From positions 62,001 through 126,000 of the forward strand of contig NZ_CANLEA010000014.1 of NCBI RefSeq assembly GCF_947489565.1: a stretch of 64,000 nucleotides of DNA, written 5' to 3'. The notes beneath the pieces were generated by a model. It did not search any database and was not told where the DNA came from. It was given only the letters and a program-made list of their open reading frames with translations. Origin of the DNA: an uncultured Kordia sp. Lineage in GTDB: Bacteria; Bacteroidota; Bacteroidia; Flavobacteriales; Flavobacteriaceae. Positions 16,502 through 51,118 of the stretch are shown piece by piece. Position 1 is the first letter of the stretch; each line of letters begins with the position of its first letter. The translations under genes and the position numbers were made by a program.

Positions 16502-16696
16502 TTACTCTGGTACCGTAGGACAAGCTGCTGCACATCTTACAAACACGCTTGTTGCTCCGCATAAAAGAGGTCCAACAGATACGGGGCAGTCACAAAGAGT
16601 TACCCAAGATCCACCTTTAATAGCATTGGTGTTGCTTTGTAATTTCGAAATAGATTTTTTGTTAAGATCTAATGTTTTTAGGTTTCTTTTTTTCAT
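16502..16696 (-). CDS. RiPP (class I lanthipeptide-like) precursor
   Basis: 64 residues. Leader MKKRNLKTLDLNKKSISKLQ...KGG ends in Gly28-Gly29, the pattern of Bacteroidetes class I lanthipeptide precursors (L-x-L-x-K-x-x-I-x-x-L ... GG). The core (SWVTLCDCPVSVGPLLCGAT, SVFVRCAAACPTVPE) has five Cys plus Ser/Thr residues that could form thioether rings. No LanB, LanC or exporter is in the window, so it is an orphan precursor. A near-palindrome at 16766-16785 lies 70 bp upstream, matching the element seen before other precursors. Confidence 0.75.
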   Translation of the reverse strand: MKKRNLKTLDLNKKSISKLQSNTNAIKGGSWVTLCDCPVSVGPLLCGATSVFVRCAAACPTVPE

Positions 16697-27960: not shown

Positions 27961-28152
27961 ATGTTAAAATCAATTTTAGACCTAAAAGGTGTTTCTGTAC
28001 TTAACAAGAAACAACAAAAAAGTACCCAAGGAGGTAGACTTTTAATTTCAACTGTTTGTACTGCAAGTACACAAGGACAACCGTGCGGACCGCCACATTG
28101 CCCAGGATTATGTGGACGTCTTAATGGCAATCCATATTGTTGGCCATATTAA
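27961..28152 (+). CDS. Gly-Gly-leader RiPP precursor, Cys/Pro-rich core
   Basis: 63 residues. Leader MLKSILDLKGVSVLNKKQQK then STQGG (Gly24-Gly25) matches the ILxLKGVxxLxKxxQ..GG group found at 40993, 41439 and 47804. Core holds five Cys within Gly/Pro/Asn turns (QPCGPPHCPGLCGRLNGNPY, CWPY). Single-gene unit ending in a hairpin at 28164. A weak TTTATTGATATAAATCACTG at 27861-27880 resembles the element before other precursors. No processing enzyme is close. Confidence 0.7.
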   Translation: MLKSILDLKGVSVLNKKQQKSTQGGRLLISTVCTASTQGQPCGPPHCPGLCGRLNGNPYCWPY

Positions 28153-40838: not shown

Positions 40839-40855
40839 TTTTATAAATTGAACAG
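40839..40855. promoter_or_regulatory. shared precursor-gene element TTTTATAAATTGAACAG
   Basis: This 17-mer is repeated exactly at 41982-41998. It ends 138 bp before the precursor start at 40993 and 53 bp before a TAAATTTG -7 box. Candidate activator site. Confidence 0.55.
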
Positions 40856-40907
40856 TCTGTTTTTTAAATCAGAAATACTACTCTTTTTTTCTAGCTACCT
40901 GTCCTCT

Positions 40908-40915
40908 TAAATTTG
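40908..40915 (+). promoter_or_regulatory. -7 promoter box TAAATTTG
   Basis: Matches TAnnTTTG; 78 bp before the precursor start at 40993. Confidence 0.5.
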
Positions 40916-40992
40916 TGAATATAAATTGTAGAGTGGCTTAATACAAAAGCAATTTATAGATTAAGATTATTAACTTATTAAAACTTAAAATT

Positions 40993-41196
40993 ATGAAGAA
41001 AAACATTTTAAACATCAAAGGTGTTTCTGCAATTTCTAAACAAGAACAAAGCCAAATTAATGGTGGTGCAGGATTCCCTGGAGCTGGAAGCTATCAAGGT
41101 TGCGGATGCGACTGTGCAGGACGCGTAACTGGACCAAAATATTGCGAATGGCTTATTGCTTGTCCTCAAGTATACACTTGTGGAGACGATATATAA
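40993..41196 (+). CDS. Gly-Gly-leader RiPP precursor (paralogue 1)
   Basis: 67 residues. Leader MKKNILNIKGVSAISKQEQS QINGG (Gly24-Gly25). Core with six Cys: GCGCDCAGRVTGPKYCEW then ACPQVYTCGDD. The core is shared with the next gene (CGCDCAGRVTG and ACPQVYTC identical), so the two are a tandem duplication. Cys-rich with few Ser/Thr, which fits disulfide-bonded or sactipeptide-like products as well as lanthipeptides. No maturation gene is nearby; the TPR-AraC regulator at 42005 is the likely controller. Confidence 0.78.
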   Translation: MKKNILNIKGVSAISKQEQSQINGGAGFPGAGSYQGCGCDCAGRVTGPKYCEWLIACPQVYTCGDDI

Positions 41197-41268
41197 ACAT
41201 ACAATTTAAAAGCGAACAAATAAATGAAAATGTAGTTAATTCATAAGCTAACTATATTTAGGGGAAAG

Positions 41269-41301
41269 AAAGGGCTTCTGATGTATATCATGGAGCCTTT
41301 T
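41269..41301 (+). terminator. terminator after precursor 1
   Basis: AAAGGGCTTC (41269-41278) pairs imperfectly with GGAGCCTTTT (41292-41301). Confidence 0.6.
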
Positions 41302-41392
41302 CGAGCTTTGAATATACCTACCATACTACTTTTTTGTGATGAATCGTTTTCAAAAAAAAACAACTATAATTTTTTAACCTAAAAGGTGTTCC

Positions 41393-41416
41393 CTGAAAAA
41401 CCTGTAATAGAGTAAG
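41393..41416 (+). promoter_or_regulatory. conserved leader CTGAAAAACC-TG-TAATAGAGTAAG
   Basis: CTGAAAAACC followed by TAATAGAGTAAG (41405-41416), 22 bp before ATG 41439. The same pair occurs at 47471-47493, also ending 22 bp before the ATG at 47516. Conserved position relative to the start codon suggests a role in the 5' leader. Confidence 0.5.
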
Positions 41417-41438
41417 GACTAACTAAACATTTTTAATC

Positions 41439-41645
41439 ATGAAAAGTATATTAAATATTAAAGGAGTTTCAAAAATTTCTAAAACAGAACAAAGTCAAAT
41501 TAACGGTGGTGCTGGATGGCCAGCTCCAGGTAATCTTAATTGTGGATGCGATTGTGCAGGACGTGTAACAGGTGGTATTGCTTGTTATTTTGCTAATTTT
41601 GCTTGTCCACAAGTATATACTTGCGACGATTCGCAAACATCTTAA
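41439..41645 (+). CDS. Gly-Gly-leader RiPP precursor (paralogue 2)
   Basis: 68 residues. Leader MKSILNIKGVSKISKTEQSQ INGG (Gly23-Gly24). Core has six Cys in the same order as the gene at 40993 (CGCDCAGRVTG, ACPQVYTC), with a changed middle (GIACYFANF) and a longer tail. It has its own leader sequence and terminator, so it is separately transcribed from paralogue 1. Same unknown maturation route. Confidence 0.78.
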   Translation: MKSILNIKGVSKISKTEQSQINGGAGWPAPGNLNCGCDCAGRVTGGIACYFANFACPQVYTCDDSQTS

Positions 41646-41680
41646 TTTTAGTAGTTATTAGGTTACAAACACTCATCAAA

Positions 41681-41712
41681 AAAGGCTTCTTGTTTGGTTG
41701 CAAGAAGCCTTT
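41681..41712. terminator. bidirectional terminator
   Basis: AAAGGCTTCTTG (41681-41692) pairs with CAAGAAGCCTTT (41701-41712), between a plus-strand precursor and a minus-strand precursor. Confidence 0.9.
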
Positions 41713-41733
41713 GAATACATTTTATTTTTTAGA

Positions 41734-41910
41734 TTAATTAGCAGTATCACAATGTGTATTGTGGGAAGTAGATTGAGTTCTTCCTCCTTTAGGCGTACGT
41801 GATTCTTCTGCGGCACAATCTATATTTGTTCCTTTTCCAAGTATATTAAACGCGTCTACTCTTGCTATTTTTATTTTTGTAAATGTTAGTATTTTTCGCT
41901 CTGCTTTCAT
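41734..41910 (-). CDS. short RiPP precursor downstream of TPR-AraC regulator
   Basis: 58 residues, MKAERKILTFTKIKIARVDA FNILGKGTN then IDCAAEESRTPKGGRTQSTS HNTHCDTAN. The leader follows the basic L-x-x-K-x-x-I-A-x-L/V layout of the precursor at 48111, and the core is rich in Ser, Thr and Cys, which suits lanthionine formation. The canonical Gly-Gly is absent at the expected cleavage point (Gly-Lys-Gly instead); a GG occurs later. It lies 94 bp downstream of the regulator gene on the same strand, the arrangement repeated at 48 kb. Confidence 0.65.
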   Translation of the reverse strand: MKAERKILTFTKIKIARVDAFNILGKGTNIDCAAEESRTPKGGRTQSTSHNTHCDTAN

Positions 41911-41981
41911 TGTAAGTATATTTATTAGTTTTTATTCAAGATACGTAACACCAGTTATGATTGCTATATAAAGTGTTGCCA

Positions 41982-41998
41982 TTTTATAAATTGAACAG
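41982..41998. promoter_or_regulatory. shared precursor-gene element TTTTATAAATTGAACAG
   Basis: Exact copy of 40839-40855, lying between the regulator stop codon and the precursor start at 41910 (72-88 bp upstream of it). Confidence 0.55.
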
Positions 41999-42004
41999 AC
42001 TTAT

Positions 42005-43687
42005 TTAGCGAATCTTTTTTAGATAAGTAGATGGGTTTTCGCCTGTTTTAGCTTTAAATGCTCTTGAAAAAGACCCATGGCTTTTGTACCCGACTTCTTT
42101 GGCAATTGCTTTGATCGTGTACATACGAAATTTCTTATCTTCTTCTAATCGATTCAGCGTATATTGAATACGAAGATTGTTCAAGTACTCCGTAAATGTC
42201 ATCTTTTTGTGCGTATTCAAAATGGTAGACAAGTATGTTGTATTGGTATCTATTTTCTTGGCGGTTGCATATAAATTATACTTAGGATTGAGGTAAAATT
42301 CCTGCGCTTCTAAGTTTTTTAACTTTTGCAGAATATCATCAACCGTTTTATCGCTCTTAATTGCTGTTTGTGATGAAGTCTTTTCTTTTTTAACCGTCAC
42401 AACTTCTTGCGCGGTTTCTTCAAGAATTACTGGATTTTTTTTCTTTTTGAATTGTTTGTACAATAAAAATCCAAATACTGCAATCACAACAATCGCGACG
42501 CTTAAGAAAATATAAAAACGTTTTTCGTCTTTTTGATGTTGTGCTTCAAACTGATTTTTGATTTTTTCAATCTCATATTGTGTAGCTGTTTGAAAAACTG
42601 TTGCTTTATTTTCCTTGGCTAAAATGTTTGTGTTAACTTCTGCAGATTTTTGTCGATACACAGACTCTTGCTCAAAATCCTTTCTGTTTTTGTGTACGTT
42701 TGCTTTTAGCACTAAAACGTCATAATAATCGGTTTCTAAAAGTTGATTTTTTGTATATCGAATTTCCAGCTCACTTAATAAATTCAATGCTGCTTCGGTT
42801 TCCCCTTTTTGAAAGTGATAATCGGCTAATAAATACATGATTTTAGAAATCTGCTTATCATTTTTCAGCTGTGTGAAAATTTCTTTAGATTCGGTCAAGT
42901 TTGCATATGCTTCTGGGAAAATTCCCTGTGCCGTTTTCGTTTTTCCTTTCAATTCAAACAAATAGGCTTTTCCTTCAATATCCTTGTAATAATCGGCAAT
43001 GATGATTCCTTTATCAATGTATAGCATGGCAGAATCGAGCAATTTTTCCGCTTGATACGCTTTGGCTAAAAACATATGGTAGTTGATATAATCTTCTACA
43101 TAATTGATGGAATCTTTTGCGATCAAATCTTTTTCTTCAATGGTAGTAATCGCTTCCGTAAAACTCTCTTTTGCTTCTTGAAAATTGTTTAAATCCAAGC
43201 TTAAAATCCCCATATTTCCATTAATATGAATCAATTGCATGGTGCGTTTGTTACGTTGTGCTACTTCATACGCGTCTAATAGTATTTCTCCAGCTTTGTA
43301 TTTGTTTCCTAATTCAATTTCTGTGGTGGCAATCGCTAATTTCGTTTGCACGTACCGAGCACTATCGGCATCATCTGAAATATTTTGCAAAGCATTGTCA
43401 TATTCAGTCATTGCTTCTTTATAAATTCCGCGGCTTTGGTAAAATGCTCCTAAATAAAAGTGTGCTCGATAGGTATGTACAGAATCATTGAACGTCGTTG
43501 CTTTATGGAAATACTCCATTCGAAGTTGCATCATTGTATCTGTTTCAATGCCTTGATAATTGAGCAAAGCTTCTTCGGCTTCTTCCAGTATTATTTTCAC
43601 ATTATTGTTTGTGCTTGATGACGAAGAAGTATCTGCACAAGCATAGATTAAAATAAATAAAAGACAACAGTGAAAAAAACGGTTCAT
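42005..43687 (-). CDS. membrane-anchored TPR regulator with AraC DNA-binding domain
   Basis: 560 residues from ATG 43687, giving signal MNRFFHCCLLFILIYAC with lipobox Cys. A long periplasmic TPR-like region (~40-370; YVQTKLAIATTEIELGNKYK, AYLFELKGKTKTAQGIFPEA) is followed by one membrane helix (~397-417, FYIFLSVAIVVIAVFGFLLY), a linker with KTVDDILQKLKNLEAQEFYL, and an AraC HTH pair (GYKSHGSFSRAFKAKTGENP). It is a one-component transmembrane sensor whose C-terminus closely matches the protein at 48430. Likely regulates the neighbouring precursors through the elements at 40839 and 41982. Confidence 0.88.
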   Translation of the reverse strand: MNRFFHCCLLFILIYACADTSSSSSTNNNVKIILEEAEEALLNYQGIETDTMMQLRMEYFHKATTFNDSVHTYRAHFYLGAFYQSRGIYKEAMTEYDNALQNISDDADSARYVQTKLAIATTEIELGNKYKAGEILLDAYEVAQRNKRTMQLIHINGNMGILSLDLNNFQEAKESFTEAITTIEEKDLIAKDSINYVEDYINYHMFLAKAYQAEKLLDSAMLYIDKGIIIADYYKDIEGKAYLFELKGKTKTAQGIFPEAYANLTESKEIFTQLKNDKQISKIMYLLADYHFQKGETEAALNLLSELEIRYTKNQLLETDYYDVLVLKANVHKNRKDFEQESVYRQKSAEVNTNILAKENKATVFQTATQYEIEKIKNQFEAQHQKDEKRFYIFLSVAIVVIAVFGFLLYKQFKKKKNPVILEETAQEVVTVKKEKTSSQTAIKSDKTVDDILQKLKNLEAQEFYLNPKYNLYATAKKIDTNTTYLSTILNTHKKMTFTEYLNNLRIQYTLNRLEEDKKFRMYTIKAIAKEVGYKSHGSFSRAFKAKTGENPSTYLKKIR

Positions 43688-43864
43688 AATGAGCATTTAT
43701 ATCCTATGGGAAAATATAGTTTTTTTAAAAATATGACAAAGCATTCTGTTTACTTTTTTTAGAAACATTAAAAATTACACTTAGCGCACATGTAATTAGG
43801 CTCTTAACATCCTTATAGCTTGCTTTTTAACTTGATTTTAAGACAGAAAAATTTCGTAAAAAGT

Positions 43865-43909: not shown

Positions 43910-46528
43910 ATGACATTAAAATCACAATCAAAAAGCAACATATTTTTTGTCTTGATTTTATTGTTTGCATTCCTAGCTTCTCCAGACGCAAATGCACAAC
44001 GTAAAAAAAGAAAAAAAGACAAAAAAGGAAGTACTGAAACAGTAATTCCAAAGAAAAAATCTAGTGAAAAATCTATTGCAGATTTAACGAAGAAAAGTAA
44101 AAAGATAGAAGGTCTTTTTACCATTTATCAAGATACCATCACCGGAACACTTCAAATGGTGGTTTCTAAAGATCAATTAGAAAAAGAATTCATTTATTTT
44201 AGTCAAGTTAAAGACGGAGTCTTGGATGCTGGCGCTTTTAGAGGTGCATATCGAGGTTCTAAAATCTTTACGGTTAAGAAATATTTCAATAAAATCGAAT
44301 TTGTAGCCAAAAACAATGCTTATTATTTCGATCCTGAAAGCGCTTTAGCCAAATCTGCAGATGCAAATATTAGCGAAGGCGTTATGGCGAGTGTCAAAAT
44401 TGAGGCAACCGATGATGAAAAAGGTTTGTATTTAATTAAAGCTGATGGCATCTTTTTAAAAGAAACATTTTCACAAATTAAACCGCCTCGTTTCCCAGGA
44501 CAAGGGCCTCTTGCGTTTACTTTAGGTAGTTTAAATAAAGCTAAGAGCAAAGTAAATGCGATTAAAAATTATCCTGAAAATACAGATTTAGTGATTGAGT
44601 ATGTATACTCAAAACCTTCTGTATTGAATAATGGATCAAAAGCTGTAACTGATGGAAGAAATGTAACCATCAAAGTAAATCACAGTTTGATTGAGATTCC
44701 AGAAAATACATATATGCCACGATTTGATGATCCAAGAGTTGGATATTTTACAACGGAAGTTACTGATATGACTACGCCAAGTAATACACCTTTTAGAGAT
44801 TATGTACACAGATGGCACTTAGAGAAAAAAGATCCGAATGCAGCAATTTCAGAGCCTGTAGAGCCAATTACTTGGTGGATTGAGAATACAACACCTCTTA
44901 AATACAGAGAAACCATCAAAGAAGCTGTATTGCGTTGGAATATAGCCTTTGAAAAAGCTGGTTTTAAAAATGCAATGGTTGTAAAAGTACAACCAGATGA
45001 TGCCGAATGGGACGCGGGAGATATTCGTTATAATGTTTTGCGATGGACTTCTTCTCCAAAACCGCCTTTTGGTGGATACGGACCAAGTTTTGTAAACCCA
45101 AGAACAGGTCAAATTTTAGGTGCTGATGTAATGTTAGAATATGCACATCAAACAAATAGAGTTCGTTACAACAGAATTTTCGAAGCATTGAGCGCCTATT
45201 CTTTAGATGATTTAGAAGACGCTGAAAATGAGTGGCAAAACTTTAAAGATGACCATCAACATTGTTCTTTGGGACATTTAATGCAAGAAAATAGTGTGTT
45301 TGGAACTACTGCTTTGACTATTATGAATGCTTCAGAAGAAGAAAAAGAAGTATTGCGTAATGAAGGATTGACACATTTAATCATGCACGAAGTTGGACAT
45401 ACTTTAGGATTGAATCACAATATGAAATCGAGTCAGTTGCACTCACCAGCGCAATTAGCCGATAAAGAATATATTAAAGGAAAAGCCTTAACAGGTTCTG
45501 TAATGGATTATGAAGCAATTAATGTTACGAATGACAGAACGCAACAAGGACACTATTTTACAACTACTTTAGGCCCTTATGATCTTTGGGCAATTGAGTT
45601 TGGATACAAGCCTGTAAAGACCTTAAAAGAATTGGACGACATTTTAAAAAGATCTACCGAGCCAGCATTGATTTTTGGTAATGATGCTGATGATATGAGA
45701 AGTCCTGGAAAAGCAATTGATCCAAGAGTGATGGTTGGTGATTTATCTAACGATCAAATTACGTATTCTGTCAATAGAATTAAGTTGGTGAATGATATGA
45801 CAAAAAATCTTCGTTCAAAATACAACGATTACGGAAAGTCGTACCAAAACTTAGTTGTTGCCTACAGCATTCTGCAAAGTCAAAAATCTAGTGCCGTAAA
45901 TGTAATTTCTCGTTTTATTGGTGGCGTGTATGTTGATAGAGCTATGCAAGGACAAGCCGGAGGAACACAACCGTATACTCCTGTGAGTTACGAAGATCAA
46001 AAAAGAGCCATGAAAGCTTTAAAGGATTATTTGTTTGCGCCAAATGCAAATGATATTCCTGCAGACTTGTATACGCACTTAGCGAGACAACGTAGAGGAT
46101 TTAATTTAGGACGCGGTACAGAAGATCCAAAAATTCACAATCTTACGTTAGGAAGACAGATGGGCGTTTTACGTCACTTATTACATCCAAATACCTTGCA
46201 ACGTATTGTTGATTCTGAGTTATACGGAAATAAGTATAAGATTCAGGAGTATATGAGAGACTTGAACAAAGCCATCTTTAATGCAGATATCAATACTGCT
46301 GTGAATTCTTTTAGACAAAATTTACAGATTGAGTATACAAATATGTTGATTCAAATGTTGACAGGAAGATCGAAAGGACGTTTTAACAATGTTGCACAAT
46401 CTATGGCGATTTACAACTTAAAATCTATCCGCAGATTTGCTGTGAATGGAGCAGGTGATTTAGCGACAAAGGCGCACAAATCGCACTTAAAAACATTGAT
46501 TGACAATGCGATGAAAGAAATTAAGTAG
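43910..46528 (+). CDS. exported zinc metalloprotease (DUF5117/DUF5118 type)
   Basis: 872 residues. Signal peptide ending at ANAQ, then a basic stretch (RKKRKKDKKG). Zinc site HEVGHTLGLNHN (~493-504) with the M10/M12-like HExxHxxGxxH pattern, followed by GSVMDYEAINV (Met-turn). Upstream motif ITWWIENTTPLKYRETIKEA is typical of this family, found in many Bacteroidetes. Secreted or periplasmic endopeptidase of unknown target. Single gene, terminator at 46605. Confidence 0.88.
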   Translation: MTLKSQSKSNIFFVLILLFAFLASPDANAQRKKRKKDKKGSTETVIPKKKSSEKSIADLTKKSKKIEGLFTIYQDTITGTLQMVVSKDQLEKEFIYFSQVKDGVLDAGAFRGAYRGSKIFTVKKYFNKIEFVAKNNAYYFDPESALAKSADANISEGVMASVKIEATDDEKGLYLIKADGIFLKETFSQIKPPRFPGQGPLAFTLGSLNKAKSKVNAIKNYPENTDLVIEYVYSKPSVLNNGSKAVTDGRNVTIKVNHSLIEIPENTYMPRFDDPRVGYFTTEVTDMTTPSNTPFRDYVHRWHLEKKDPNAAISEPVEPITWWIENTTPLKYRETIKEAVLRWNIAFEKAGFKNAMVVKVQPDDAEWDAGDIRYNVLRWTSSPKPPFGGYGPSFVNPRTGQILGADVMLEYAHQTNRVRYNRIFEALSAYSLDDLEDAENEWQNFKDDHQHCSLGHLMQENSVFGTTALTIMNASEEEKEVLRNEGLTHLIMHEVGHTLGLNHNMKSSQLHSPAQLADKEYIKGKALTGSVMDYEAINVTNDRTQQGHYFTTTLGPYDLWAIEFGYKPVKTLKELDDILKRSTEPALIFGNDADDMRSPGKAIDPRVMVGDLSNDQITYSVNRIKLVNDMTKNLRSKYNDYGKSYQNLVVAYSILQSQKSSAVNVISRFIGGVYVDRAMQGQAGGTQPYTPVSYEDQKRAMKALKDYLFAPNANDIPADLYTHLARQRRGFNLGRGTEDPKIHNLTLGRQMGVLRHLLHPNTLQRIVDSELYGNKYKIQEYMRDLNKAIFNADINTAVNSFRQNLQIEYTNMLIQMLTGRSKGRFNNVAQSMAIYNLKSIRRFAVNGAGDLATKAHKSHLKTLIDNAMKEIK

Positions 46529-46680: not shown

Positions 46681-47088
46681 TTAGTTTTCAAAAAATAATA
46701 AATTGCCATCATAGCATTCTTGTGAAAGACTAATTTTTCCTGAACTTAACTCATCAAGAATAAGTGCTCCATATTGTCGTGTGTCAATTTGAACAGTTAA
46801 ATTATCACCATAATCACATTGACCATCTACTAAAGTATAACTATAACTTCCTGCGGGTAATACAGGACTATCTATTCCTTGCTGCGTTTCAATAGTTATA
46901 GTCATATTGGTAAAATCGAATGTCCATAAAATTTGATTCGGTGTATAGAAATTTGATGCCCCTTGTTCTGGCGCATAATAATCTCTCAAAAGAGAAAATG
47001 TCATTACGTCTGCACTTGTTGCATCGTCATCGTTATTACAAGAAACTAGCATGAATAGCGCTAGTAGTGGTAAGAATATTTTTTTCAT
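46681..47088 (-). CDS. small lipoprotein, unknown
   Basis: 135 residues. Signal MKKIFLPLLALFMLVSC with Cys17 and an NNDDDA tether typical of Flavobacteriaceae. A compact beta-rich domain follows (ILWTFDFTNMTITIETQQGI, SYTLVDGQCDYGDNLTVQID) ending near LSQECYDGNLLFFEN, with two cysteines. No family recognised. Sits at the left border of the 47-50 kb RiPP module. Confidence 0.72.
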   Translation of the reverse strand: MKKIFLPLLALFMLVSCNNDDDATSADVMTFSLLRDYYAPEQGASNFYTPNQILWTFDFTNMTITIETQQGIDSPVLPAGSYSYTLVDGQCDYGDNLTVQIDTRQYGALILDELSSGKISLSQECYDGNLLFFEN

Positions 47089-47263: not shown

Positions 47264-47329
47264 CTACTGTTTCAAAAAAGAAACTACGTTCTCCTCTATG
47301 CTATTTAAAATATTAAAACCTTTAAGCTA
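47264..47329 (-). pseudogene. purC: fragment of the purC 3' end
   Basis: Read on the minus strand it encodes [16 protein letters not shown] then TAG; the intact purC at 50168 ends [16 protein letters not shown]. At DNA level 47272-47314 matches 50176-50218 at 40 of 43 positions, in the same orientation. Similarity fades upstream of 47329. The fragment cannot encode a protein by itself and marks a past duplication or insertion at this locus. Confidence 0.82.
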
Positions 47330-47360
47330 TAAATACGGTTTAAAAGTATCGTTAACTGCT

Positions 47361-47377
47361 CTCAATTTATAAATCTG
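47361..47377. promoter_or_regulatory. shared element CTCAATTTATAAATCTG
   Basis: Within AACTGCTCTCAATTTATAAA (47354-47373), which matches AACTGTTCTCAATTTATAAA on the minus strand at 48407-48426 with one change. It ends 139 bp before ATG 47516, the same distance as the element before the precursor at 40993 (138 bp). Confidence 0.55.
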
Positions 47378-47470
47378 CAATGCCAATTTTTAAATCGAGT
47401 GTAACTCCGTTTTTTTTCAACTATTTCCTCCAATACTTTTATCTCATAATTGCTAGCAGTGAGGCGGATT

Positions 47471-47493
47471 CTGAAAAGCCTTAATAGAGTAAG
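47471..47493 (+). promoter_or_regulatory. conserved leader CTGAAAAGCC-T-TAATAGAGTAAG
   Basis: Matches 41393-41416 and sits at the same distance (22 bp) from the start codon. See that entry. Confidence 0.5.
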
Positions 47494-47515
47494 AATAATA
47501 TTTAATCATACGATT

Positions 47516-47731
47516 ATGAAAAAAAAGAGTTTAAATTCCTTAAAACTGAACAAGGAAAAAGTCAGTTTCGTTGGCATAACAAAAGAAATTGTTCGCGGAG
47601 GTTTGGCTAGTTGGAGAGGAGTTTCTTGCGTATCTCGTTGTATATGTCCTTGTGAGTATAGTGATAGTTGTCCGATACGTTTAAAAACTAATGAAGGTCC
47701 ATGTCCAGATGGAACTGAAGGATGCGTTTAG
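47516..47731 (+). CDS. Gly-Gly-leader RiPP precursor, seven Cys
   Basis: 71 residues from ATG 47516; a longer frame upstream would translate the conserved leader and is rejected. Leader MKKKSLNSLKLNKEKVSFVG ITKEIVRGG (Gly28-Gly29), the L-x-L-x-K class like the gene at 16502. Core has seven Cys (GVSCVSRCICPCEYSDSCPI and CPDGTEGC). It is followed 72 bp later by another precursor on the same strand. Right-hand module, convergent with the precursor at 48111. Confidence 0.75.
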   Translation: MKKKSLNSLKLNKEKVSFVGITKEIVRGGLASWRGVSCVSRCICPCEYSDSCPIRLKTNEGPCPDGTEGCV

Positions 47732-47803
47732 TCTACTATCATAAATAGATACTTTTTAAAATCATCATCATTTATTTAATACTAATTTTTTAATTTTTAT
47801 ATC

Positions 47804-47989
47804 ATGAAAAAAAACATTTTAAACTTAGAAGGAGTTCAGGAAATCAACAAACAGCAACAAGCTAAAATCAATGGAGGTTTTGGCAATATGGCCTGCTATA
47901 ATAGTAATGATTGTAGTATTCTTAATTCTATACCAGGGATGGAATATGAGCGTTTCTTTTGCTATTGGGGATATTGTCAGATAGCTTAA
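47804..47989 (+). CDS. Gly-Gly-leader RiPP precursor, aromatic-rich core
   Basis: 61 residues. Leader MKKNILNLEGVQEINKQQQA KINGG (Gly24-Gly25) is nearly the same as at 40993. The core (FGNMACYNSNDCSILNSIPG, MEYERFFCYWGYCQIA) has four Cys and many aromatic residues. No separate promoter is evident, so it may be read from the upstream precursor's message. Terminator at 48059. Confidence 0.75.
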   Translation: MKKNILNLEGVQEINKQQQAKINGGFGNMACYNSNDCSILNSIPGMEYERFFCYWGYCQIA

Positions 47990-48058
47990 TGCAACAGTGA
48001 GTATTGATGGTAAATCTCCATTTTTTCCATCGTATTAATTAAAAACTTTTCAAAATAG

Positions 48059-48086
48059 AAATAGGCAGAAGCACTGCCTATTTTTT
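48059..48086. terminator. bidirectional terminator
   Basis: ATAGGCAG (48061-48068) pairs with CTGCCTAT (48074-48081), with flanking A and T runs, between convergent precursor genes. Confidence 0.85.
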
Positions 48087-48110
48087 GTTTACATATAAAA
48101 TTCTAAGTAA

Positions 48111-48338
48111 TTAGGCATATTCACACGTTACACATGTATAACAGTATGTTTTTTCTTGAGATTGTAAATAATACGTCGTGCCACTTGTTGTTTCTCCTGT
48201 CCCAAGAGATTGTGAACATGTATGAGATTCTTGACAATCCAAGGCATTACTTCCAACTATTCCGCCTTTGATCGCTGCATATTTTAATGCAGCTATTTGT
48301 ACTTTCTTTAGCTTCAAATTCTTGTATGCTTTTTTCAT
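48111..48338 (-). CDS. lanthipeptide-like precursor downstream of TPR-AraC regulator
   Basis: 75 residues from ATG 48338 (MKKAYKNLKLKKVQIAALKY AAIKGG, Gly25-Gly26). Core rich in Ser/Thr with five Cys (DCQESHTCSQSLGTGETTSG, TTYYLQSQEKTYCYTCVTCE), the composition expected for class I lanthipeptides. It lies 91 bp downstream of the regulator at 48430 on the same strand, mirroring the 41734/42005 pair. A perfect palindrome lies 67 bp before its start. Confidence 0.78.
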   Translation of the reverse strand: MKKAYKNLKLKKVQIAALKYAAIKGGIVGSNALDCQESHTCSQSLGTGETTSGTTYYLQSQEKTYCYTCVTCEYA

Positions 48339-48404
48339 AATATAGCGTTTAAATGTTTGGAGCAAAGTACTCGAAAAAAGAGCGCCAACACCTGTGATTT
48401 GCGC

Positions 48405-48420
48405 TCAATTTATAAATTGA
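48405..48420. promoter_or_regulatory. perfect 16-bp palindrome TCAATTTATAAATTGA
   Basis: Perfect inverted repeat, 67-82 bp before the precursor start at 48338 and just after the regulator stop codon. Together with the sites at 16766, 40839, 41982 and 47361 it forms a family around CAATTTATAAAT. Likely operator of the neighbouring TPR-AraC protein (inference). Confidence 0.6.
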
Positions 48421-48429
48421 GAACAGTTT

Positions 48430-50070
48430 TTAAGGAAGTTTTTTAATGTATTCAGAAGGATTCATTCCTGTTTTAGCTTTAAAAGCTCTGGAAAAAGGAC
48501 TGTGACTTTTATAACCGACTTCTTCAGCAATAGCTTTTACCGTGTATTGTCTGAATTGTTCATCAGTTTGTAATCGATGTATAGTATACGTAATCCGTAA
48601 TTCATTTAAATACTCCGTAAAGGTCTTTTTTTGATGTACATTTAAAATCGTAGATAAATAGGTTGTATTGGTGCCTATTTTTTTAGCCGTAGCGTATAAA
48701 TTATATTTCGGATTCAAAAAGAATTCATCTTCTTCAAGTTTCTGAAGTTTCTTTAAAATATCGTTTACAGTTTTATCATCTTTTAAGGGTTGAGGAGACG
48801 ATTTTTTAGAGATGGTTTTCTCTTTGGTTACTTTTCGATACTTATAAGTAATAAAAACAAATACACTGATAATGGCAAACAGTATTCCTAGCATCCAATA
48901 CAACTGCTTTTTCTTAGCTTGTTTTTGTTTTTCAACATCGCTTTCAGCTTTTTCATAATTATATTTTGTCGTTAAATATAATTTTTGATCTCTTCCTTTT
49001 TTTAGTTCTATTGAATCTTTTAAGTCTTCTGATAAAGCCGTATACCGAGTCGCTTTTTTATAATCTCCAAGTTCTCTGTAGGTATTTCTGGTAAGTTTTA
49101 AAACATCATAAAATAAATCATCTGGCATATAATTGGACAGCTTTCTTAATTCTATATCTTCCAATACAGATAATGTTTTTGTATAGCGTTTATTTTCATA
49201 ATGACATTCCGCTATATGTAGTAATACCGTTGAAACTTGCGTCTCATTTTGATCTAAAACAAATATTTTTTTTGCTGCTTCATAGTTTTCAAGTGCTTTA
49301 GAAAAATCTTTCTGCTTTTGATAGGCTTTCCCTTTTTGAATTAATAAATTAGCTTTACAATCTTTAAATCTTCCATTATTTTTATTTGCTTCTAGTCCTT
49401 TTTCCACATATATAAATGCCGAATCTACTATCGCTGCTTTGTTATAAGCTTTTGCAATAAGTGTATGTAAAACAACGAAGTGCTTTTGATATGTATACGG
49501 CTTTTTTACGATCAAATCATTTTCCAAAATATACCGAATCCCGTCTTTGAAAATTTTAACGGATCTAGCCAATTTATTTTCTTCAAGATTTAGATATCCC
49601 ATATTGACTTTAATCGTAAAAATGAATCGCTGTAGATTATTTCGTTCTGCTATTTTATTCGCTTCATAAAATATTTCTGCAGCTTTTCCATAATTTTTTA
49701 AATGTACATAGGTTAATGCTATATTCATTTTAGTTTGTACATATCGTGCGCTATCTTTATCGACTGTAATAACAGCCAATGTCTTTTCATACTGCTCAAT
49801 AGCTTCTTCATACAAGTTTTTTTTGGCCAAAAACGCTCCTATTTTAAACTCAGACCTGTATACATGTACGGGATCATTGTATTGCTTTGCTTTAGAGGAA
49901 TAATCTAACGTTAGTGGCAACAAAGAATCTAGTGAAGTTTGAGCATTTACTAAATCTTCGGCTTTTTTTAAAATGGCTTGTATTTCTTTTGCTTCAGTTG
50001 ATGATTCTTTCGAATGCTTGTTGCAACCAACAATTAAAAATAGAATTAGTAAAAATAAAAAACGACTCAT
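48430..50070 (-). CDS. membrane-anchored TPR regulator with AraC DNA-binding domain (paralogue)
   Basis: 546 residues from ATG 50070, giving lipoprotein signal MSRFLFLLILFLIVGC. TPR-like region ~45-365 (YVQTKMNIALTYVHLKNYGK), one membrane helix (~387-406, YWMLGILFAIISVFVFITYK), linker KTVNDILKKLQKLEEDEFFL, and AraC HTH pair (TNTTYLSTILNVHQKKTFTE; GYKSHSPFSRAFKAKTGMNP). The last ~110 residues are closely similar to the protein at 42005, so the two are recent paralogues. Separated from purC by a terminator. Likely controls the precursors at 47.5-48.3 kb. Confidence 0.88.
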   Translation of the reverse strand: MSRFLFLLILFLIVGCNKHSKESSTEAKEIQAILKKAEDLVNAQTSLDSLLPLTLDYSSKAKQYNDPVHVYRSEFKIGAFLAKKNLYEEAIEQYEKTLAVITVDKDSARYVQTKMNIALTYVHLKNYGKAAEIFYEANKIAERNNLQRFIFTIKVNMGYLNLEENKLARSVKIFKDGIRYILENDLIVKKPYTYQKHFVVLHTLIAKAYNKAAIVDSAFIYVEKGLEANKNNGRFKDCKANLLIQKGKAYQKQKDFSKALENYEAAKKIFVLDQNETQVSTVLLHIAECHYENKRYTKTLSVLEDIELRKLSNYMPDDLFYDVLKLTRNTYRELGDYKKATRYTALSEDLKDSIELKKGRDQKLYLTTKYNYEKAESDVEKQKQAKKKQLYWMLGILFAIISVFVFITYKYRKVTKEKTISKKSSPQPLKDDKTVNDILKKLQKLEEDEFFLNPKYNLYATAKKIGTNTTYLSTILNVHQKKTFTEYLNELRITYTIHRLQTDEQFRQYTVKAIAEEVGYKSHSPFSRAFKAKTGMNPSEYIKKLP

Positions 50071-50112
50071 ACAGCTTTGGAATGCTTTTTCTTGATGATA
50101 GTTCAAAGTAAC

Positions 50113-50150
50113 AAAAAAGAGACATTCATACAGGATGAATGTCTCTTTTT
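50113..50150 (-). terminator. terminator of purC
   Basis: GAGACATTCAT (50119-50129) pairs with ATGAATGTCTC (50135-50145), flanked by A and T runs, just downstream of purC on the minus strand and ahead of the regulator gene. Confidence 0.88.
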
Positions 50151-50167
50151 ATAATTTTTATAACAGT

Positions 50168-51118
50168 TTATTTGCTCAAAAAAGAAACGACGTTCTCCTC
50201 TATTCTATTCAAAATATTGGAAACATCAGCTTTTTCAAAGGTATCACCCGTAATGTTTTCGTATAATTCAATATAACGATCAGAAACAGACGTTATATAT
50301 TCGTCACTCATAAAAGGTACTTCTTGTCCTTCTTTCCCTTGAAAACCATTGCTGATTAACCATTGACGCACAAATTCTTTTGACAATTGCTTTTGCGGTT
50401 CTTGTTTTGCTTGCAATTCTTCATAAGTATCTGCATAGAAATAACGAGAAGAATCTGGTGTGTGAATTTCGTCGATTAAAACAATCTTACCATCTTTTGT
50501 TTTACCAAACTCATATTTGGTATCCACTAAGATTAATCCACGTTCTTTCGCAATTTTTGTACCTTCTGCAAACAGTAAACGTGTATAGTCTTCTAATTTA
50601 ATATAATCTTCTTCTGATACAATTCCTTTTGCTAAAATGTCTTCACGAGAAATATCTTCATCATGTTCGCCCATTTCTGCTTTGGTAGCAGGCGTAATAA
50701 TTGGCGAAGGAAATTTGTCATTTTCAATCATTCCTTCTGGCATTTCCACTCCACAAAGCATGCGTTTTCCAGCTTTATATTCGCGTGCAGCATGACCTGA
50801 TAAATATCCACGAATCACCATTTCTACCTTAAAAGGCGTACAATTGTGGCCAATCGCTACATTTGGATCTGGCGTTGCAATCAACCAATTTGGCACCAAA
50901 TGTTCGGTAGCTTTCATCATTTTGGTCGCAATCTGATTCAAAATTTGTCCTTTGAATGGAATTCCTTTTGGCATTACTACATCAAAAGCAGACAAGCGAT
51001 CGGTAGCAATCATGACCAATAGATCGTCATTAATTGTATACACTTCGCGTACTTTTCCTGTGTATTTTGCGGTTTGATTCGGAAAATTAAAATTCGTTCC
51101 CGTAATTGTATTACTCAT
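50168..51118 (-). CDS. purC: phosphoribosylaminoimidazole-succinocarboxamide synthase
   Basis: 316 residues, full length. SAICAR synthetase motifs: [28 protein letters not shown] is the family N-terminus; [42 protein letters not shown] and [13 protein letters not shown] follow. Condenses CAIR with aspartate in de novo purine synthesis. The last 16 codons are copied at 47264-47314 in a non-coding fragment, pointing to an insertion or duplication at the 3' end of this gene. Confidence 0.95.

Follow-up and report, generated by a model that had tools for sequence, protein, structure and literature searches.

Genomic islands of the SGI1 type are large and integrase-borne, sensors of the RRNPP family are cytoplasmic and have no membrane segment, and class I lanthipeptide-type leaders have the same MKK start, short GG-ending leader and Cys/Ser/Thr-rich core as the TIGR04149 peptides of Bacteroidetes. 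Riemerella anatipestifer, the host of another island of interest here, is a member of the Flavobacteriales. SGI1 and its kin are described as integrated at the 3' end of trmE and mobilised by plasmids (PMC8409611), the 10K genomic island of R. anatipestifer as carrying an integrase and a perfect 53 bp direct repeat (PMC6764341), and Kordia as having many biosynthetic clusters, a proteusin-like one among them (PMC10734526). Here we analyse a 64,000-nucleotide stretch of DNA (the window, positions 62001-126000 of contig C14) from the 6.4-Mb draft genome of an uncultured Kordia species (G000), in which an extra set of peptide and regulator genes, cassette B (47356-50106), lies between the intact purC gene and a stranded second copy of the purC 3' end. 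A resident set, cassette A (40840-43696), lies less than 4 kb away. Each cassette holds small precursor genes (preA1-2 and preB1-3) and a gene for a regulator (TPRa and TPRb) that joins a tetratricopeptide repeat (TPR) part to an AraC-type helix-turn-helix (HTH).

Our favoured explanation, which we hold tentatively and with a little less than even confidence, is that cassette B is a second-specificity version of the purC-side peptide/regulator cassette, added recently by uptake from a relative. Ten Kordia congeners (G001-G010, including K. algicida OT-1, K. periserrulae, K. jejudonensis, K. zhangzhouensis and K. aestuariivivens) were used for comparison; G008 is the sister species of G000, a relation supported at 100/99 in the tree. 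Among the titles and abstract openings of the open-licence literature, outside which most subscription journals and preprints fall, we found no description of pairs of TPR-AraC genes and GG-type precursors.

Results

The purC gene (50168-51118, minus strand) is intact and encodes 316 amino acids, and 43 bases within its 3' end (50176-50218) recur on the same strand at 47272-47314, where no gene is attached to them. Forty of the 43 bases are identical, and the copies are 2904 bases apart from start to start. The match has E = 2.7e-13 in a scan of the window and E = 3.7e-11 over the whole genome; the runner-up ungapped match in the window reaches 26/43, and a whole-genome search at E<=0.001 found no third copy. 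The stranded copy has kept its coding frame and ends in a TAG stop. An earlier interpretation of the window, made without database searches (the sequence-only reading), had reported this same-orientation repeat, a copy still encoding the purC C-terminus plus a stop, and two plus-strand precursors, one minus-strand precursor and a TPR-AraC regulator between the repeats; it was right in each respect, and the repeat was confirmed both in the sequence and genome-wide. The repeated block halts 8 bases short of the purC gene end, stop codon included, and beyond the 43 bases neither side shows homology to G000 purC above chance (213/300 and 160/300 shuffles score equally).

Across the 11 genomes, a search with the purC end returned two copies in G000 and one, at purC, in each of eight others; for G001 and G008 it missed even purC's own end, and only for their 19-kb regions can a second copy be excluded. 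We also compared the 120-base tails of 495 open reading frames (ORFs), of which 189 came from the 11 purC loci, 189 from 16 TPR-AraC regions of G000, and 117 from eight more regions (seven precursor regions and one G006 region overlapping a purC locus). Only for purC was there a same-strand copy of the last 50 bases in nearby intergenic DNA. Two further same-strand intergenic matches sit at least 80 bases inside the tail (L017 13288-13327, 80% over 41 bases; L066 4130-4165, 86% over 36); two other tail matches are on the opposite strand, and the remainder are ORF-to-ORF matches, mostly between paralogous genes. A general rule by which such cassettes copy gene ends is unsupported, there being no case in the 16 other TPR-AraC regions or the eight further regions.

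The stranded copy differs from purC of its own genome at 3 of 43 bases, and the purC ends of the congeners match it at 28-38/43. At fourfold sites, the divergence between G000 and G008 is 414/919, or 0.45, and a fragment left unconstrained since before the G008 split should have lost its likeness to purC. Because it has so few differences when set against this divergence, the fragment looks recent, and appears to have belonged to a working purC until recently, either in the G000 lineage or in a donor.

TPRb (48430-50106, minus strand, likely start ATG 50073) was assigned its TPR domain and C-terminal AraC-type HTH by profile search and structural model, with HTH_18 scoring 58.4 bits against a Pfam cut-off of 33.6. 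It is 43% identical overall to TPRa (42005-43696, minus strand), which is present in all 11 Kordia genomes compared; identity is 35% in the TPR part (133/385) and 72% in the HTH (88/122). A regulator tree was built from 31 rows, namely TPRb, the 11 TPRa and a further 19 sequences selected by length and motif, with other TPR-AraC genes left out. TPRb and the 11 TPRa formed one clade (Shimodaira-Hasegawa-like approximate likelihood-ratio test, SH-aLRT, 100), within which the 11 TPRa formed a subclade (99). Judged from its sequence, TPRb is a deep sister of the congeners' TPRa, and TPRb, the only further clade member that was found, is located where the clade has its locus, against purC. The AlphaFold model (mean predicted local distance difference test 86.9, predicted template modelling score 0.62) combines a TPR superhelix with a long helix and an HTH of AraC type, and by eye the protein has a lipoprotein-type, lipobox-like N terminus and a hydrophobic stretch near residues 390-415 in the long helix. 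There was no sequence match to TPRb in the PDB at E<=1e-6. Outside the genus, searches that scored only the best 3, and no more than 9, candidates in each genome gave no match in 394 family genomes (E<=1e-50) or in 138 relatives (E<=1e-45). A pattern scan of genome contigs with TPRb found no relative.

The two cassettes share a layout, with two precursors on the plus strand, a small gene and the TPR-AraC gene on the minus strand, and two operator-like sites. In cassette A, preA1 (40993-41196) and preA2 (41439-41645) are followed by a small ORF without a canonical GG at the preB3 position (41734-41910) and then by TPRa. Cassette B has preB1 (47516-47731; 71 amino acids, with a GG-type leader and a Cys-rich core), preB2 (47804-47989; 61 amino acids, with a leader in common with preA1, 42% over 57 amino acids), preB3 (48111-48338; 75 amino acids, with a GG-type leader) and TPRb. 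Weak leader matches to preB3 occur at the same position in G001 and G010.

The operator-like sites have the consensus TTTATAAATTGA-ACAG in cassette A and TTTATAAATTGA-GA-RCAG, two bases longer, in cassette B. The A-type sites (40840-40855 and 41983-41998, both plus strand) lie 137 bases before preA1 and just beyond the TPRa stop, 6 bases past it. The B-type sites lie 142 bases before preB1 (47356-47373, minus strand, TTTATAAATTGA-GA-GCAG), with the stranded purC copy ending 41 bases ahead of this first site, and between the TPRb stop and the preB3 start, 3 bases past the stop (48409-48426, plus strand, TTTATAAATTGA-GA-ACAG). A joint pattern occurs 18 times in the 11 genomes, of which 10 have matches and G009 has none; a reversed control gave 0, and about 1.4 are expected from base composition over the same genomes. 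Sixteen of the 18 sites are inside TPRa or TPRb cassettes; G000 has four, two per cassette, and the window contains exactly these 4 compared to 0.01 in shuffles. Sites that deviate from the pattern by one or two changes are common in A cassettes. When ORFs are filtered strictly, a GG-type ORF is within 0.37 kb of 15 sites and at 0.8-1.7 kb from the other three (G005, G006 and G007), with preA-like matches closer to the sites in these three genomes than the strict-filter ORFs.

The remaining two sites, of A type and outside the purC locus, are 56 bases (G001:C44, at L111:4460) and 97 bases (G004:C134, at L112:4400) from a GG-type small ORF. It is possible that they are distant members of a TPRa regulon.

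The order purC, phoH, SAM-hydrolase gene is kept in 9 of the 10 congeners, and the contig of G004 stops at purC. TPRb is beside purC in 0/10 congeners, where its best matches are TPRa, at 42-44% identity. On its 3' side, purC has TPRa as its neighbour in G003, G005, G007 and G010, and a DUF5117 metzincin gene in G001, G002, G004, G008 and G009. Because no large gene separates TPRa from purC in these first four of the 10 congeners, the purC side looks like the home of the TPRa/TPRb clade. The purC 3' gap is a variable place, since its small extra genes differ between congeners: by eye, a precursor in G004, a precursor and a protein of about 110 amino acids in G001, and this protein alone in G003 and G008.

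Several features of this neighbourhood were recorded in addition. The protein of about 110 amino acids, with an NKSKNYINV-like start, occurs in the purC 3' gap of L017, L022 and L025 (three congeners), and the one in G001 has no Pfam match. In the window, the DUF5117/DUF4953 metzincin gene (43910-46528) is between TPRa and purC, as in five congeners, and it was not found there in the other five. The purC 3' side of G006 (L016) is rearranged, with a MATE and precursor block inverted and a long tandem repeat beyond purC. A small lipoprotein gene to the left of the repeat (46681-47088, minus strand) was without a match in any of the 10 congeners (E<=0.001). The sequence-only reading had taken it as a fixed flank and had looked to relatives for an empty site with a single purC end next to it; no exact empty site was found in the congeners because none matched the lipoprotein gene. 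Different cargo between repeats, also anticipated, was not seen in the congener regions, in which no second purC end was found.

TPR-AraC genes are strongly expanded in Kordia, each genome giving between 14 and 45 matches (E<=1e-20), and several of the 16 G000 regions (L064-L079) have neighbouring copies and precursor arrays. In 17 G000 stretches (the window and 16 regions chosen for holding TPR-AraC genes), 26 of 30 such genes had a GG-type precursor within 2 kb, and precursor density near them was 5.9-fold (56 in 139,922 bases vs 14 in 206,792), precursors being called with a custom-made filter. Two more GG-type precursor ORFs in the window (16505-16696, minus strand; 27961-28149, plus strand) are far from both TPR-AraC genes. 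We noticed no modifying enzyme among the genes read beside precursors, and no dedicated search was made.

Discussion

The purC-linked cassette of a related strain was most likely added to G000 through recombination anchored in purC. The regulator of cassette B is a diverged sister of the resident one at the same locus, in the same layout and with a related operator-like site, which points to cargo of allelic origin, unlike random island cargo. We prefer uptake from a relative because an island with random cargo should not, on expectation, bring in a sister of the regulator already resident there. The incoming DNA would have come from a related strain or species whose purC adjoins a B-type cassette. 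One side of it would have recombined within purC and the other would have been attached by end-joining, such that cassette B was inserted next to cassette A with no replacement and one purC end was left stranded at the left junction. In the cassette so gained, precursors would be exported and then trimmed at GG. TPRb may be held in the membrane, with its TPR part outside the cytoplasm reading the mature exported peptides or a linked signal, and its HTH would bind the B-type sites and switch on preB1/preB2 and preB3. TPRb would in this way sense its own peptides, and the two-base difference between sites, together with the changes in the HTH, would help to keep TPRb apart from TPRa.

A number of observations weigh against this account or limit it. 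The purC end of G003 matches the fragment at 38/43, and the preference of the fragment for its own purC is therefore only two bases. Flanks on the purC 3' side align poorly between species, and either of the two purC ends may be the native one. The downstream side of the fragment has weak likeness to the flanks of G002, G004 and G008 (16, 17 and 25 of 300 shuffles equally good), and the present purC flank to those of G008 and G009 (13 and 15 of 300). A chimeric purC was examined by sliding identity; the last 120 bases are 80% identical to G008 compared to 86-92% elsewhere in the gene, a loss of the G000-G008 signal that is weakened by the divergent tail of G008 itself. The TPRb branch was flagged as long, and a fast-evolving copy is conceivable. 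Top solved Foldseek matches of its TPR part were TPR domains, many of them LGN with bound partners, with Rap lower, and the matches as a whole are generic TPR proteins. No donor genome for cassette B is known, and peptide sensing, operator binding and peptide modification are predicted roles.

Not every precursor has the same history as the regulator. Closest DNA relatives of preB2 (78% in G008, 76% in G001, 72% in G009) are in another locus. The best relatives of preB1 are 57, 53 and 51% identical in G003, G007 and G009, and those in G003 and G007 sit behind another TPR-AraC gene with one more small ORF between. There is no alignment between preB3 and the small ORF of cassette A. Cassette B may be a mosaic. 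Its description is accordingly that of a sister regulator in the same layout more than of a sister cassette; sequence comparison establishes a sister relation of the regulator and of the layout, but not of every peptide. The locus with the preB2 relatives (L103, L104 and L105, in G008, G001 and G009) contains varied GG-type precursors, with a gene alongside that by eye is dihydrolipoamide dehydrogenase-like.

The strongest competitor, although in our view unlikely, is a small non-autonomous island that a tyrosine recombinase acting in trans integrated at the 3' end of purC, with the gene restored and its old tail displaced in the process. The direct repeat of a gene 3' end, the intact purC and the sporadic presence of the cassette are what such an event would leave, mosaic precursors would fit mobile cargo, and the rest of the genome has 13 PF00589 matches that could supply the enzyme, an integrase acting in trans giving the same picture. 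Against this, contig C14 itself has no PF00589 match, in agreement with the sequence-only reading's statement that no integrase is present; the repeated block stops before the gene end; and no other gene in the 16 other TPR-AraC regions and eight further regions has a copy of its last bases. Viral contigs gave no exact match to a 27-base purC-end pattern, and carriage by viruses was rejected on these searches. TPRb, in addition, is a sister of the resident regulator at the same locus. The sequence-only reading had proposed insertion of an island at the gene's 3' end, and a good part of that proposal survives, in that the module is in G000 with its regulator beside purC in no congener, purC is whole and the extra end looks recent. 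Its view of the cargo as an island remnant is not supported, given the sister regulator, the same layout and the related operator-like site.

Improbable, in our assessment, is an ancient tandem duplication of cassette A, older than the radiation of the genus and broken within purC, followed by loss of cassette B in the other species. The same layout, the sister regulators and the shared locus are all consistent with it, and a duplication ending inside purC yields exactly the observed order. However, the fragment would then be as old as the 43% split between TPRa and TPRb, yet it has kept 40/43 bases in the face of a fourfold-site divergence of 0.45 even to the sister species, and the stranded purC end is thus too well kept. 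At least four losses would also be needed on the TPRa tree rooted by other regulators, or two if the root is placed beside the G000-G008 pair. An independent short duplication of the purC end, unrelated to the arrival of the cassette, has little to recommend it either, for although the copy is just 43 bases with flanks lacking clear further homology, it lies so near the first operator-like site of cassette B, the copied gene is the one that borders the cassette's other edge, and there was no other case among the 495 gene ends.

A bolder and doubtful extension is that the purC side of Kordia is a pheromone-type specificity locus, and that G000, having acquired a second, orthogonal type, runs two insulated peptide circuits whose operators differ by a two-base insertion. 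Each lineage would then have a TPR-AraC receptor in the membrane, together with secreted peptides and an operator of its own. With the A/B pair, one genome contains two sister receptors whose operator-like sites are related and nearly exclusive, and the binding targets of the regulators and the insulation of sister circuits are therefore directly testable. The pair also suggests one route by which a bacterium gains a second circuit.

Cassette B resembles the SGI1 kin, as these are described, in its insertion at a gene 3' end and sporadic presence, a gene-end direct repeat being the expected footprint, and differs from them in its size of 2.9 kb, the absence of an integrase and a regulator that is a sister of the resident one (PMC8409611). 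Its direct repeat is similar in length to that reported for the 10K island, but is matched at 40/43, and the integrase is again missing (PMC6764341). Like RRNPP sensors such as Rap (PDB 8rsv, 6t3h), TPRb has a predicted TPR superhelix, a fold able to bind peptides, and small peptide genes adjoining; it departs from them in its C-terminal AraC HTH and, as read by eye, in an N terminus of lipoprotein type and a hydrophobic stretch in the long helix, and the fold match is generic. The precursors have the MKK start, short GG-ending leader and Cys/Ser/Thr-rich core of the TIGR04149 GG-leader peptides of Bacteroidetes, while preA1 and preA2 score 14.7-15.2 bits, under the curated cut-off of 25, and preB1-3 had no match to that model at E<=0.1. 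Clusters for ribosomally synthesised and post-translationally modified peptides in Bacteroidales offer a further parallel, with TPR-domain and HTH genes near GG precursors; there, as far as that account describes them, these are separate genes in enzyme-bearing clusters, whereas here the two parts are fused in one TPR-AraC gene (PMC10352776).

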